Positions 30,513 through 36,819 of a stretch of 64,000 nt of DNA are shown one piece after another. The first letter of the stretch is position 1, and each line of letters starts with the position of its first letter. The stretch covers positions 372,001 to 436,000 of the forward strand of contig NZ_CP104003.1 in assembly GCF_025231485.1 (NCBI RefSeq). The letters are read 5' to 3'. Under the pieces are notes generated by a model. It was not told the origin of the DNA and did not search any database. It worked only from the letters and a program-made list of their open reading frames with translations. Made by a program: the position numbers and the translations under genes. Origin of the DNA: Salinirubellus salinus. Lineage in GTDB: Archaea > Halobacteriota > Halobacteria > Halobacteriales > Haloarculaceae.

Positions 30513-30900
30513 CCGTCTTCGTCTACCGATTCCTCGACGTACCGTACGTTGTTGATTTCCGCGTCGGTGGTATTGACGCCTCAGTCCGAGGCTCCGCTCA
30601 GTAACGCACGCATCTCGAACTCGTCCAGTGTGACGCCCTCGTCTCGGAACAAGTCGGCGAATGCAGCCTTCGACTCGAAGGCGTGCGAGGCGAGTCGGTC
30701 CAACAATTCCTGCTGTGTCGTTTTCCGACCAGCTTGCATCTTGATTTCGGCTTGGAGTGTCTCTATCCAGTTCTTTTTTGTCTCGTCTATCTCTACTGAG
30801 GTAATCGTAATCGCTGGTAGAACGGTTGCTGGGAATGTCTTCGGCGGTTTGCCGCGGTCTGCCCCGCGCCAACCCTCATGGCTCGTTACCTATCACGAGC
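30509..30900 (-). pseudogene. vapB: VapB-like antitoxin remnant with an in-frame stop
   Basis: The minus-strand frame reads ITSVEIDETKKNWIETLQAE, then TTQQELLDRLASHAFESKAA and DEFEMRALLSGASD, then TGA at 30581-30583. It continues in the same frame as GVNTTDAEINNVRYVEESVD and ends with TGA at 30509-30511, overlapping the vapC GTG as GTGA. The premature TGA probably replaced a Trp codon. No plausible start codon is left upstream, where TGA-TAG lies in frame near 30910. The pair is a decayed toxin-antitoxin operon next to the S-layer gene. Confidence 0.7.
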
Positions 30901-31031
30901 GCGTTCTGTCAGTCGTCCGTACGACTCTCGTCTGACGTTTCCGGATGGTGTGTCACATTGTACCAATACGGCCGCTACCCGGTGATTTCCGGTACGTTAG
31001 GTGATGGCACTCAACGCGTTCTACCACAAAA

Positions 31032-31042
31032 CATTTATAACG
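31032..31042 (+). promoter_or_regulatory. promoter (TATA box) of the S-layer glycoprotein gene
   Basis: The sequence ACATTTATAAC has a near-consensus archaeal TATA box at about 31034-31040 within an AT-rich island (CCACAAAACATTTATAACG). Transcription should begin near 31062-31066. That leaves a leader of about 115-120 nt before the S-layer ATG at 31181, unlike the leaderless genes around it. Long leaders are known for haloarchaeal S-layer genes. Confidence 0.7.
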
Positions 31043-31073
31043 AGCGCAAGTTGTCTGGGGTGTACCCCTACCC

Positions 31074-31184
31074 ATGGTGACAGTACGGAGTACCGTCCCT
31101 GCGTCTCCCGGTGGCCCGCGTGGGCCGCACGCAGGGTGCGCGAAACGGACGTCGCCGATGCGGTGCAGCTCAAACAAACTATGA
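31074..31184 (+). CDS. putative 36-residue leader peptide (uORF) of the S-layer gene
   Basis: An ATG about ten bases after the predicted transcription start opens a 36-codon frame: MVTVRSTVPASPGGPRGPHA and onward to SSNKL. Its TGA stop (31182-31184) overlaps the S-layer ATG (31181-31183) as ATGA. Ribosomes ending here could restart directly on the S-layer gene. The leader RNA also contains a GGCCC-GCGT-GGGCC hairpin at 31113-31126 inside the frame. An open frame of this length is not rare in GC-rich DNA, so translation is an inference; the exact ATGA junction is what makes it notable. Confidence 0.4.
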   Translation: MVTVRSTVPASPGGPRGPHAGCAKRTSPMRCSSNKL

Positions 31185-34100
31185 CAGGAACAAACGACAA
31201 ACTTCGCGGCCTGCTCCTGGCCGTGCTGATGGTTACGTCCGTTTTCGCGGGCACCATCGCATTCGCTGGGACTGCAGCAGCTGCGACTAATGCCTCGGGT
31301 GGCGTACCCGCAGGCAGCGGCGCATCGTTCGCCGACTCGCCGGCTTCATCGCCGACGACGGTGCTCGAAGGAACCACTAACACCCACACGTTCACGTTTA
31401 CCGTGGACGAAATCGCGGACGATGGCAACACAGACACGTTTAATGTCGACCTGCCGAACGCCATCGCGCAGAACGCCGACACTGGCTCGCTCAGTGTCTC
31501 CGTCGAGGACAAGAACGACGGCACGACCTACTCGATAGAGGGTGGCCCGTCGCTCGTCAGCGGAGACTCTGACGGTGTCAATGATCGGCTGACTTTCGAT
31601 GTTAGCCCGGATACAGGCGCCGAAACCTACGACGCGGCTGTTCAGATTCAGGTCGATGTTGAGGCGCCCAGTGTCGATGATGACACGACGGTCAGCCTCG
31701 ACGCGGAAGTTGTTGACTCCGATGGCCCGACGGCCACGGCCGACAACTTCGCGTCGGTGACGGTCCGTGCATCCGCGAGCGAGGATGCTGACGCCAACGT
31801 CGACAGCAACGAGAACGACCTGTTCTGGCAGGGTCAGGAACTCGCTATCAACGATCCGACTAACCTCGCTAACGAGCGTCTGGTCCTCCGAACCGTGACT
31901 CGTGACGCTGGCGACCCCATCCGTGGTACCATCGTCAGTGAGATCTCGACGAACGACCAGGGTCAGGCGACCATCGACACCAGCAACCTCGAAGGTGAGT
32001 ACGCCATCTACCAGAATGGCGACCCCATCGTGATGGTTGACGGTGCGAGAGATGCAGCCAGTAACGCTGAACTGAACGAGGAAGACGTGTTCACCGTCAC
32101 TCCGCAGACGCTGAGCGCGGAGTTCGACGACGACACTGTCGAGCAGGAGCCGACTGAACTCATGCTCGACTCCAACCGCGCGACGTACAACGTCGACATC
32201 AGCGCAAACAACATCAGCTACGACGACCTCGAGACCATCTTCGGTGAAGAGGCCGGCGAGTTCGATGGCGATGATGAAGACACGTACACGCTTGCGGTTG
32301 ACAGCAACAACGCGAACATCGGTGCTGACTTCACCGACATCGACGCCGATGACTACGACTTCGATATCGAAGTCAATGACACCGGTGTCTCGGCCACGGC
32401 GCAGATCACGAACAACGAGGCTGGCGACATTGACGCCAATTTCGCTACCTCGGCGTACAGTGAAGCCCGTGGTGACATCGTTGAGTTCACGATCGACCTG
32501 ACCCAGACGGATGTCGCGACGGTTGACGTCGGTTCGGACGACGTGAACTACCTTGCGACGTTCGAAATCGAGGACGACGACGACGACGGCGAAGTCGTCG
32601 TTGAGTGGAACACCTACACGAACGAGTTCAGCTCCGAGGACGACGTCGTCCGGAACGAGCAGTTCACCAACGGTGCTGGTGAGGACCTCGTTCGGGAGGA
32701 CCGCTCCCCGCTCGACGAGGGTGACTACGACCTGAGCGTCTCGGTCAACGACGACGAGAAGGACGTCGCGACGCTCGCGCTGACGGAGACCACGATCACT
32801 GGCTTCGACATCGCGACGGCGCCGTCCGCTGAGTTCAGCGACCTCGACGACGCCGAAGCGGTCTCCGAAGCCCGTGCTGACGGCCTCATCACCACCACCG
32901 ATGAAGTGGCGCTTGGTGACGTCGTCGTCCACGAACTCGACGGAAACGGCATCTTCGGTGCAGTCGAAGCCAACGGCGACGACTTCGGCGCACTCGAAGC
33001 TCTGAGCTCCGATCTTAACCCCGAGGACGATGACATCGGCCCGGGAATCGAGCTTCGGTTCGTTCAGGACAACCCTGGCCCGAACGTTGACGCGATCAAC
33101 GTGACGCTTCAGGAGTCTCCCCTGACTGCGAGCGACGTTAACGTCGTCACTGACGACGAGAACGGCACGCTCTACGTCAACGTTGACTCCAGCGCGCTGG
33201 AGGCCAGCGACTTCTCGGATGAGGGTGGCTTTGAGGACGGCGACGTCCTGAACGTCACGCTTGAGATCTTCGAGGACAGCCAACTGGTTGAGGAGGACAC
33301 CAAGCTGTTCACCACTGTCGACCTCGCCGACGCAGAGGCTGAGTTCGACTCGAACGCTGAGGACGAAGATGGCGACGAGATCGTCGAAGTCGAGGCCGCC
33401 GCGGATCAGGTGGTCTCCGGCACGACGAACCTCGCGCCTGGGACGGAGATGACCGTTCGCGCTCGCGCGACCGGTGACAGCCCGTTCCTCTTCAGCAACG
33501 ACACGGTCGTCACGCAGAACGGCACGTTCAACAGCACGTTCGACTTCACGAACGTCTCGGCTGGGCAGGACTTCACGCTGAGTGTTGAAAGTCCGAGCTC
33601 GGTCAGTGACACGGAGATCGACGGTGTCATCGCGGCGGCCCCGTCGGCCAACGTCACGATCAGCAACCAGTCCGGCGCTGGTGACACGGTCCTCGTGGAC
33701 TCGGTCACCATGTCGGAAGGTGGCTTCGTCACCATCCACGACAGCACGCTGAGCGACAGCGCGATTGAGTCTGTCCGTGGGACGTCTGAGTACCTCGAGT
33801 CCGGCACGACGGAGAACGTCTCCGTCACGCTCGACAGCCCGCTCAACGAGAGTGGCACTGTCATCGCGATGCCGCACCTCGACACCAACGAAAACGAGGA
33901 GTACGACTTCGTCTCCTCGGAAGGTGCCGACGACGGTCCGTACACGAACGCTGACGGCAGCATCGTGACGGACTCCGCCGAATACACGGTTGAGGACGCG
34001 GAGATCGCGACGGTCTCCATCGAGGCCCAGTCGGGCGACGGTTCGTCCGTCTCGGTCGCCTCGGCGTTCCTGCCGAACGGTGGCTTCGTCACCATCCACG

Positions 34101-34555
34101 ACAGCACGGTCAGCGACGACCCGGTCGGCTCGGTCCTCGGTACGTCCGAGTACCTCGAGCCGGGTACGTCCGAGGACATCACGGTCGCCCTGGACGACCC
34201 GCTGACGGAGTCCCAGGCCGCGATCGCGATGCCGCACCGTGACACCAACGGCAACCAGGAGTACGACTTCGTCTCCAGCGAGGGGGCGGACGACGCGCCG
34301 TACCTGAACGCCGACGACCAGATCGTCATCGACTCGGCCGACTACACGGTCGAGACGCCGACGCCGACCCCGACGGAGGCGACTCCGACGGCTACGGCCA
34401 CGGCGACCGCCACGGCTACGGCCACGGCGACCGAGACGATGGAGCCCGGTACTGAGCCGCCGACGACCACGTCGGGTGGCCAGGCTGGCTTCGGTGTCAT
34501 CGTCGCGCTCATCGCGTTCCTCGCCGCTGCGCTCATCGCGGTCCGCCGCGACTAA
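31181..34555 (+). CDS. csg: S-layer glycoprotein with C-terminal archaeosortase signal
   Basis: This is the surface-layer protein that forms the cell wall. The 1124-residue product has a signal peptide (MTGTNDKLRGLLLAVLMVTS to AGTAAA, cleaved near residue 34), then a very acidic ectodomain with many N-glycosylation sites (such as NASGG, NVTL, NGTF, NVSV). Two tandem C-terminal beta-domains, about 840-950 and 955-1060, share GGFVTIHDST, GTSEYLE and EYDFVSSEGADD. A Thr/Pro/Ala linker follows, the likely O-glycosylated stalk. The end is GGQAGFGVIVALIAFLAAAL plus IAVRRD, a tripartite sorting signal in which the usual PGF is AGF. ATG 31181 is chosen because the signal peptide starts there. Confidence 0.93.
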   Translation: MTGTNDKLRGLLLAVLMVTSVFAGTIAFAGTAAAATNASGGVPAGSGASFADSPASSPTTVLEGTTNTHTFTFTVDEIADDGNTDTFNVDLPNAIAQNADTGSLSVSVEDKNDGTTYSIEGGPSLVSGDSDGVNDRLTFDVSPDTGAETYDAAVQIQVDVEAPSVDDDTTVSLDAEVVDSDGPTATADNFASVTVRASASEDADANVDSNENDLFWQGQELAINDPTNLANERLVLRTVTRDAGDPIRGTIVSEISTNDQGQATIDTSNLEGEYAIYQNGDPIVMVDGARDAASNAELNEEDVFTVTPQTLSAEFDDDTVEQEPTELMLDSNRATYNVDISANNISYDDLETIFGEEAGEFDGDDEDTYTLAVDSNNANIGADFTDIDADDYDFDIEVNDTGVSATAQITNNEAGDIDANFATSAYSEARGDIVEFTIDLTQTDVATVDVGSDDVNYLATFEIEDDDDDGEVVVEWNTYTNEFSSEDDVVRNEQFTNGAGEDLVREDRSPLDEGDYDLSVSVNDDEKDVATLALTETTITGFDIATAPSAEFSDLDDAEAVSEARADGLITTTDEVALGDVVVHELDGNGIFGAVEANGDDFGALEALSSDLNPEDDDIGPGIELRFVQDNPGPNVDAINVTLQESPLTASDVNVVTDDENGTLYVNVDSSALEASDFSDEGGFEDGDVLNVTLEIFEDSQLVEEDTKLFTTVDLADAEAEFDSNAEDEDGDEIVEVEAAADQVVSGTTNLAPGTEMTVRARATGDSPFLFSNDTVVTQNGTFNSTFDFTNVSAGQDFTLSVESPSSVSDTEIDGVIAAAPSANVTISNQSGAGDTVLVDSVTMSEGGFVTIHDSTLSDSAIESVRGTSEYLESGTTENVSVTLDSPLNESGTVIAMPHLDTNENEEYDFVSSEGADDGPYTNADGSIVTDSAEYTVEDAEIATVSIEAQSGDGSSVSVASAFLPNGGFVTIHDSTVSDDPVGSVLGTSEYLEPGTSEDITVALDDPLTESQAAIAMPHRDTNGNQEYDFVSSEGADDAPYLNADDQIVIDSADYTVETPTPTPTEATPTATATATATATATATETMEPGTEPPTTTSGGQAGFGVIVALIAFLAAALIAVRRD
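34376..34437 (+). repeat. short tandem repeat encoding the Thr-Ala stalk of the S-layer protein
   Basis: A 24-bp unit of ACGGC-type triplets (ACGGCTACGGCCACGGCGAC plus CGCC) is present about twice and encodes alternating Thr-Ala. It forms the linker between the ectodomain and the sorting signal. Repeat slippage here would change stalk length without breaking the frame as long as whole codons move. Confidence 0.6.
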
Positions 34556-35874: not shown

Positions 35875-36819
35875 ATGCCGCAAGGACCGACCGACCTCCT
35901 GGCGTGGCTCTCCATCGGCCTGTTCGTGGCCGGCGTCCTCCTCGAGCGTCGCGACCGCCGTGTCGGGCGTGCGCTCACCGCGGCCGGCTGGGTCACCTTC
36001 GGGGTGTTCTGGGGCGTTCTCGTGCCGCACTTCCTGCTCGTCGAGAAGAGCGCCATCGAGGGGATCGCCAGCCTCGCGGCCGTCCCCGCCTCCGTCTACA
36101 CCGGCTACCTGCTCTGGAACGGTCGGGACTCGTTGTTCGTCCTCTCACGGGCCGTCGCGGTGATGGGCGTCATCTACCTCCCGGCGACGACAATCCAGCC
36201 GGCCTACGAGTTCCTCATCGAGGAGACGACCCGGCAGGTCGCACTCGGCATCGACCTGCTCGGCTACTCGCCGGAGGTGACGGCGAACGAAGAAGGCGTC
36301 CGCAACACGTTCGTGTTCACCACCGGCGGACGGACCTTCGAGACCTACATCATCCTCGCGTGTACGGGGCTGGGGAGCATGGCCATCTTCGCGGGCGTCA
36401 TCGCGGCCGTGAAGGCACCGATCGACCGCAAGGTCGGGGCGTTCCTCGTCAGCATCCCCGTCATCTGGGTGCTGAACATCGCCCGGAACGTCTGGATCGC
36501 CATCGCCTTCGGCAAGCAGTGGCTGCAGGTGGGCGTCGACCCGGTCAGCGCCGTCTTCGGCGTCCCGGCCGGTGACGAGGGCCTCGTCTCGTTCTACCTC
36601 GCGGACAAGGTCATCGCGCAGTCGGCGTCGGTGGTGGCGCTGCTCGCCATCACGTTCTTCGTCGTCCGGCGACTCCCCGAGGTGACGACGGTCCTCGAGG
36701 ACACCGTCTACGTGCTGACGCGGCGCGAACTCGACCTGCAGGCGGAACTCGGGCTGCGGCCGGGCGGGCCGCCGGCCACCGACGGCGGCCGGCCGGCGGA
36801 GCGCGACGGTGAGCAGTGA
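35875..36819 (+). CDS. artA: archaeosortase A, first of a tandem pair
   Basis: Archaeosortases cut the C-terminal sorting signal of surface proteins and allow lipid anchoring. The 314-residue membrane protein has about eight helices. The catalytic Cys163 is in ILACTGLGSMAIFAG and the Arg204 in LNIARNVWIA; both agree with family motifs. At the place where the sister gene has Arg (ADRILAQ) this one has Lys245 (ADKVIAQ). If that is the third essential Arg known from Haloferax ArtA, activity may be altered. SAIEG and GRDSLFVLSRAVAVMG in the N-terminal half are also family signatures. Its stop overlaps the next ATG by one base (TGATG). Confidence 0.9.
   Translation: MPQGPTDLLAWLSIGLFVAGVLLERRDRRVGRALTAAGWVTFGVFWGVLVPHFLLVEKSAIEGIASLAAVPASVYTGYLLWNGRDSLFVLSRAVAVMGVIYLPATTIQPAYEFLIEETTRQVALGIDLLGYSPEVTANEEGVRNTFVFTTGGRTFETYIILACTGLGSMAIFAGVIAAVKAPIDRKVGAFLVSIPVIWVLNIARNVWIAIAFGKQWLQVGVDPVSAVFGVPAGDEGLVSFYLADKVIAQSASVVALLAITFFVVRRLPEVTTVLEDTVYVLTRRELDLQAELGLRPGGPPATDGGRPAERDGEQ

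Follow-up and report, generated by a model that had tools for sequence, protein, structure and literature searches.

The leader of an S-layer glycoprotein-like gene in the analyzed DNA of Salinirubellus salinus (a stretch of 64,000 nt, here called the window) carries a short upstream open reading frame (uORF), and the two together are very probably, as judged from comparison among haloarchaeal sequences, a real device that passes ribosomes on to the gene for the cell's most abundant protein. Compensatory changes that back a long-range helix, designated P1, indicate that the leader is a structured RNA, and we consider it reasonably probable that its uORF is coupled to the S-layer start by termination-reinitiation.

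The S-layer gene and its leader in the window

The features of this region, with the evidence for each in brackets, are as follows.

31034-31040, + strand: TATA-like box TTTATAA of the S-layer promoter (sequence, spacing in relatives)
31062-31073, + strand: GTACCCCTACCC, the conserved start of the leader (almost no variation among the 63 leaders aligned)
31074-31184, + strand: upstream ORF of 36 codons plus TGA, with its ATG at 31074-31076 (frame tests)
31076-31083, + strand: 5' arm of the P1 helix, GGTGACAG, starting at the last base (G) of the upstream ATG (covariation)
31089-31092, + strand: AGTA within the conserved GAGTA motif (no variation among the 63 leaders aligned)
31097-31136, + strand: variable inner hairpin, CCCTGCGT (31097-31104) with ACGCAGGG (31129-31136), tip at 31113-31126 (minimum-energy fold)
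31142-31156, + strand: 3' element, composed of GAAA (31142-31145) and the 3' arm of P1, ACGTCGCC (31149-31156) (conservation, covariation)
31181-31184, + strand: ATGA junction, where the S-layer ATG (31181-31183) overlaps the uORF TGA (31182-31184) (sequence)
31181-34555, + strand: S-layer glycoprotein-like gene, 1124 aa, with signal peptide and PGF-CTERM

The S-layer protein scored above the cut-offs of TIGR04207 (haloarchaeal surface-glycoprotein signal peptide) and TIGR04126 (PGF-CTERM); NF041335 (ArtA-dependent S-layer glycoprotein) matched it partially (E 6e-63; 213 bits, where the cut-off is 1100), and a search of the PDB gave no match. Downstream of the S-layer gene, at a distance of 1.3 kb, is a gene for archaeosortase A (window 35875-36819; TIGR04125, E 4.6e-95), the class of enzymes by which PGF-CTERM S-layer proteins are processed.

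The distance from the first T of the TATA-like box to the A of ACCCCT is 30 nt in the window and in 90 of the approximately 146 relatives measured. On the basis of the TATA box, transcription is predicted to start at or adjoining 31062, which would give a leader of 119 nt with the upstream ATG (uATG) at about +13. The csg mRNA of Halobacterium has a leader of 111 nt, and this would fit the 111 nt found between GTACCCC and the ATG in leader L095.

The first-pass annotation had described the ATG at 31074 as opening 36 codons and ending in a TGA that overlaps the S-layer ATG as ATGA, and this is what the window contains (36 sense codons, peptide MVTVRSTVPASPGGPRGPHAGCAKRTSPMRCSSNKL). It had also placed a hairpin inside the frame at 31113-31126, which is present (GGCCC-GCGT-GGGCC) but is only the variable tip of the inner hairpin; the conserved structure, i.e., the long-range P1 helix together with the 5' and 3' elements, had been missed.

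Conservation of the leader among haloarchaea

A DNA search against 58 relatives revealed blocks conserved outside the coding region: the TATA box, GTACCCCTACCCATGG...GAGTAC, GAAAG...GCC, and CAAACTATGAC. When the leader motif was searched without the ATG, it was found in 123 of 391 genomes, and a covariance model of the leader matched 135 of 242 genomes, belonging to 49 of 74 genera. We inspected 60 further matches of this model, and all 60 were followed by a gene whose product has a signal peptide of the S-layer type. The S-layer leader was the only significant match of the model in the genome of the window itself, and extra copies there were rejected on this ground. The search of Rfam 15 gave no family match, apart from a chance hit below threshold on the opposite strand.

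Our set comprised 200 distinct S-layer leaders, drawn from 51 genera of haloarchaea, and the ATG directly follows the CCCC element in 150 of these. The GAGTA motif was found in 157 of 188 leaders. A Shine-Dalgarno (SD)-like motif at the S-layer start was absent in 197 of the 200 leaders and present in three.

Some genomes carry more than one leader. In many genomes of one genus (g6, probably Haloarcula), two S-layer-type genes lie roughly 3.3-4 kb from each other, both preceded by a copy of the leader, and the second copy has GATACCCC in place of GTACCCC (L163-L168, L171, and their partners). Several genomes of another genus (g54, probably Haloferax) combine an S-layer leader whose uORF is intact with a second one that has AAG for ATG and an early stop (L225, L226, and L233 compared with L114-L116, L230, L234, L242, L247, and L248).

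The P1 helix and inner elements

In P1, GGUGACAG, which immediately follows the first two bases of the upstream AUG, pairs with CUGUCGCC, located 20-25 nt before the S-layer start. Six of the eight pairs form in the window sequence. Across 63 leaders, 91.4% of the cells were paired, and double changes numbered 33 against 7.4 +- 2.3 in shuffles; slid versions of the helix failed the same test. A second set of 59 leaders gave 63 double changes against 17.9, with an alignment that was fitted to the model, and RNAalifold predicted P1 unaided. The helix is also maintained in many leaders in which AAG, ACG, or AGG replaces ATG, one of these counts being lenient. Single-sequence folding energies were not unusual (z about -1.4 to +1), so that it is covariation that carries the case for structure.

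The inner hairpin differs in sequence and length between relatives. The near-invariant AGUA (31089-31092) and GAAA (31142-31145) face each other across the structure, and the pair possibly resembles a loop-E (bulged-G) internal loop.

The encoded peptide

The first-pass annotation had regarded the uORF product as a leader peptide, and the comparison of relatives did not bear out a conserved product. In close pairs, amino-acid versus synonymous change (pN/pS) was alike in frames 0, 1, and 2, and frameshifts within genera have later been compensated; a conserved leader peptide was therefore rejected. No conserved stall or control codons were found in the uORF peptide. Which reading frame passes through the 3' element differs from taxon to taxon. 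Because the peptide is unconserved, it seems to be the act of translation, not its product, that matters.

The uORF peptides are basic, which is unusual among haloarchaeal proteins. Codon 2 (window 31077-31079) is GTG in 90 of the 150 uATG leaders, and GTG is also found after many of the AAG, ACG, and AGG replacements of ATG; a GUG start could, to go by these sequences, outlast the loss of AUG.

Position of the upstream stop codon

S-layer genes begin with ATGAC in nearly all leaders, and any open frame in the right phase therefore ends as ATGA. Since phase (1/3) and an open frame give this layout by chance in about 19% of single leaders, the leader of the window does not by itself go beyond chance, and the question is a comparative one. 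Among the 150 uATG leaders, 124 frames end within -4 to +16 nt of the S-layer ATG, 61 of the 150 exactly as ATGA, and 26 end outside this range; the corresponding frames in the 50 leaders without uATG end within the range in 14 cases and as ATGA in nine.

The same tendency was seen when counts were weighted by genus. In a first, smaller set, the stop of uATG leaders is in the -4 to +16 range in 25.7 of 33 genera, against a shuffle mean of 9.5 (maximum 16 in 300 runs) and against 5.3 and 6.1 of 33 for control frames +1 and +2; the exact ATGA layout was observed in 16.4 of 33 genera, against 6.4 in shuffled, random-phase leaders. In the enlarged set, from which the counts for 150 and 50 leaders come, the stop is within the range in 33.5 of 43 genera with uATG and 7.9 of 23 without (Fisher p 0.001, computed on rounded genus counts), and leaders found by the RNA model, not by the motif, agree (15.2 of 21 versus 2.1 of 8 genera). 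Most of these tests treat genera as independent and so overstate significance, their p values being too small; the most careful is the contrast within the 15 genera that hold both kinds of leader, where uATG leaders were better in 10, worse in 1, and tied in 4 (p 0.012). Depletion of stop codons in the uORF frame was weak by itself and was not used as main evidence. Parsimony on the taxonomy gave 68 changes of length versus 38 of phase, a comparison made uninformative by the free spacer after the Haloarcula stop.

The uORF has thus very probably been selected as a coupled frame, as far as can be read from these sequences, and its decay where the uATG has been lost is what is expected under selection on translation. 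The first-pass annotation had proposed that the leader be compared in related genomes, and the comparison favored it on this point: the frame and the close stop/start arrangement are kept across genera and decay without uATG. Of the translationally coupled leader peptide that it had suggested, the coupling is therefore supported, while conservation of the peptide and attenuation of transcription are not.

Two other readings have to be weighed here. The leader might act only as a structured RNA, influencing mRNA stability or ribosome access, with the uORF as a passenger whose ATG is kept as part of the conserved CCCATGG beside P1 and whose openness comes from GC-richness. Such a reading agrees with the persistence of the P1, GAGTA, GAAA, and CCCC elements where ATG is replaced by AAG, ACG, or AGG, with the differing reading frames of the 3' element, and with the unconserved peptide; we nevertheless regard it as unlikely, because phase and stop position track the presence of ATG (mod-3 phase in 30 of 43 genera with uATG versus 8.6 of 23 without, genus-weighted), because the contrast within genera is 10 to 1 in favor of uATG leaders, and because the frame +1/+2 and shuffle controls fail. 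It is far more improbable still that the uORF is an inhibitory decoy that captures ribosomes, or that the layout is fortuitous. Even though chance would produce ATGA in about one fifth of single leaders, the stops cluster in the re-initiation window across genera, which a decoy does not need and chance does not provide.

Proposed mechanism of coupling

In the mechanism that we favor, i.e., a structured leader whose uORF is coupled to the S-layer start, ribosomes would initiate at the uORF AUG, some 12 nt into the mRNA, and translate 20-43 codons (53 in one case), melting P1, which spans the uORF. Translation would end at the S-layer AUG or shortly upstream of it, and the ribosomes would re-initiate there. 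Because this start has no SD motif, its ribosomes would be supplied by the uORF, and selection would keep phase and stop position, the sequence of the peptide being unimportant. The comparison shows that the RNA helix, the start codon, the phase, and the stop position are conserved; we infer where transcription starts, that the uORF is translated, that ribosomes re-initiate and to what extent, and any protective or regulatory role of P1. Candidate roles of P1 are protection of the 5' end, control of initiation at the uORF, and a switch with the S-layer start.

As to the stop/start spacing of a termination-reinitiation pair (overlap or at most about 16 nt), the window has the ATGA overlap and 124 of the 150 uATG leaders lie within this spacing. 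In Hfx volcanii, coupling is best with a -4 overlap, about 60% lower at a spacing of 13 nt, and abolished at 22 nt (PMC10666635), and the clustering of uORF stops within these measured spacings fits coupling. A counterpoint is that an initiating ribosome would need to melt P1; others are the 26 uATG frames that end outside the range, the weak depletion of stop codons, and the unusual basic peptides. Furthermore, a quarter of the leaders, including those of orthologues of Hfx volcanii Csg, have no ATG, so that the uORF is dispensable in those lineages.

Attenuation and switch readings

The first-pass annotation had also suggested that the leader could attenuate S-layer synthesis. No terminator-like site was found in 30900-31300 with a bacterial-type pattern, which covers archaeal terminators in part, and a transcription attenuator was rejected on this ground.

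Attenuation may also be imagined at the level of translation, with stalling or occupancy of ribosomes on a regulatory leader peptide toggling between P1 and another fold. Since P1 spans the uORF, the position of a ribosome must affect it, and the 3' arm of P1 (31149-31156) could instead pair with UGACAG at the S-layer start (31182-31187), a match seen in many species (78.8% of cells). This alternative helix shows no covariation, both sides being too invariant for such a test. Three leaders of close Csg orthologues (L112, L113, and L117), whose proteins match PDB 7ptp, the solved structure of Hfx volcanii Csg, have ATC for ATG, a stop after three codons, and a shortened length of about 80 nt. 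In stationary phase, translation of the csg transcript is repressed in Hfx volcanii (repression factor 1.1 to 3.9; PMC3225822), which would favor a regulatory leader; if Hfx volcanii is like the sampled orthologues, however, this growth-phase regulation cannot rest on a uORF. With the peptide and control codons unconserved and a terminator-like site absent as well, we think a regulatory leader peptide quite improbable.

A related idea is that the leader is a ribosome-run archaeal RNA switch, in which the 3' arm of P1 pairs with either its 5' arm or UGACAG and translation of the uORF decides between them. We judge this unlikely; if true, S-layer synthesis would follow the translation capacity of the cell, and leader-peptide attenuation would have an archaeal equivalent that acts on translation.

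Relation to known systems and significance

Overlapping gene pairs of haloarchaea (Huber et al., 2019, PMC6728339; Huber et al., 2023, PMC10666635) share with the coupled uORF the -4 nt ATGA overlap, a stop within a short re-initiation window, and an SD motif that is not strictly needed; those pairs consist of two full operon genes, whereas here a short frame with an unconserved peptide lies in a structured leader. Short frames are known in long 5'-UTRs of Hfx volcanii (Babski et al., 2016, PMC4983044), but that study concerned only leaders of 150-250 nt and peptides of low isoelectric point, did not mention the S-layer gene, and did not describe a conserved phase or RNA fold. Bacterial attenuators of the trp and ermC type also place a short frame in a folded leader upstream of a regulated gene, but in the S-layer leader neither conserved stall or control codons nor a terminator is seen, and there is no SD motif to sequester. 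SD-less initiation on 5'-UTRs (Kramer et al., 2014, PMC3986360) resembles the present case in the leader without SD at the main start; there initiation is de novo at the main AUG, whereas here ribosomes would come from the uORF. No description of this S-layer leader element was found in the literature searched, and it is absent from Rfam. We consider the leader novel in its combination of RNA fold and coupled uORF, the mechanism being of a known kind.

The lack of the uORF in orthologues of Hfx volcanii Csg would explain why work on that model has missed the uORF leader. S-layer proteins usually rank first in abundance among the proteins of haloarchaeal cells, and we know of no account of how mRNAs that have no SD motif recruit ribosomes in such numbers. 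A leader conserved in some 50 genera, whose helix covaries and whose uORF has very probably been kept in phase by selection, offers a concrete and easily tested answer.
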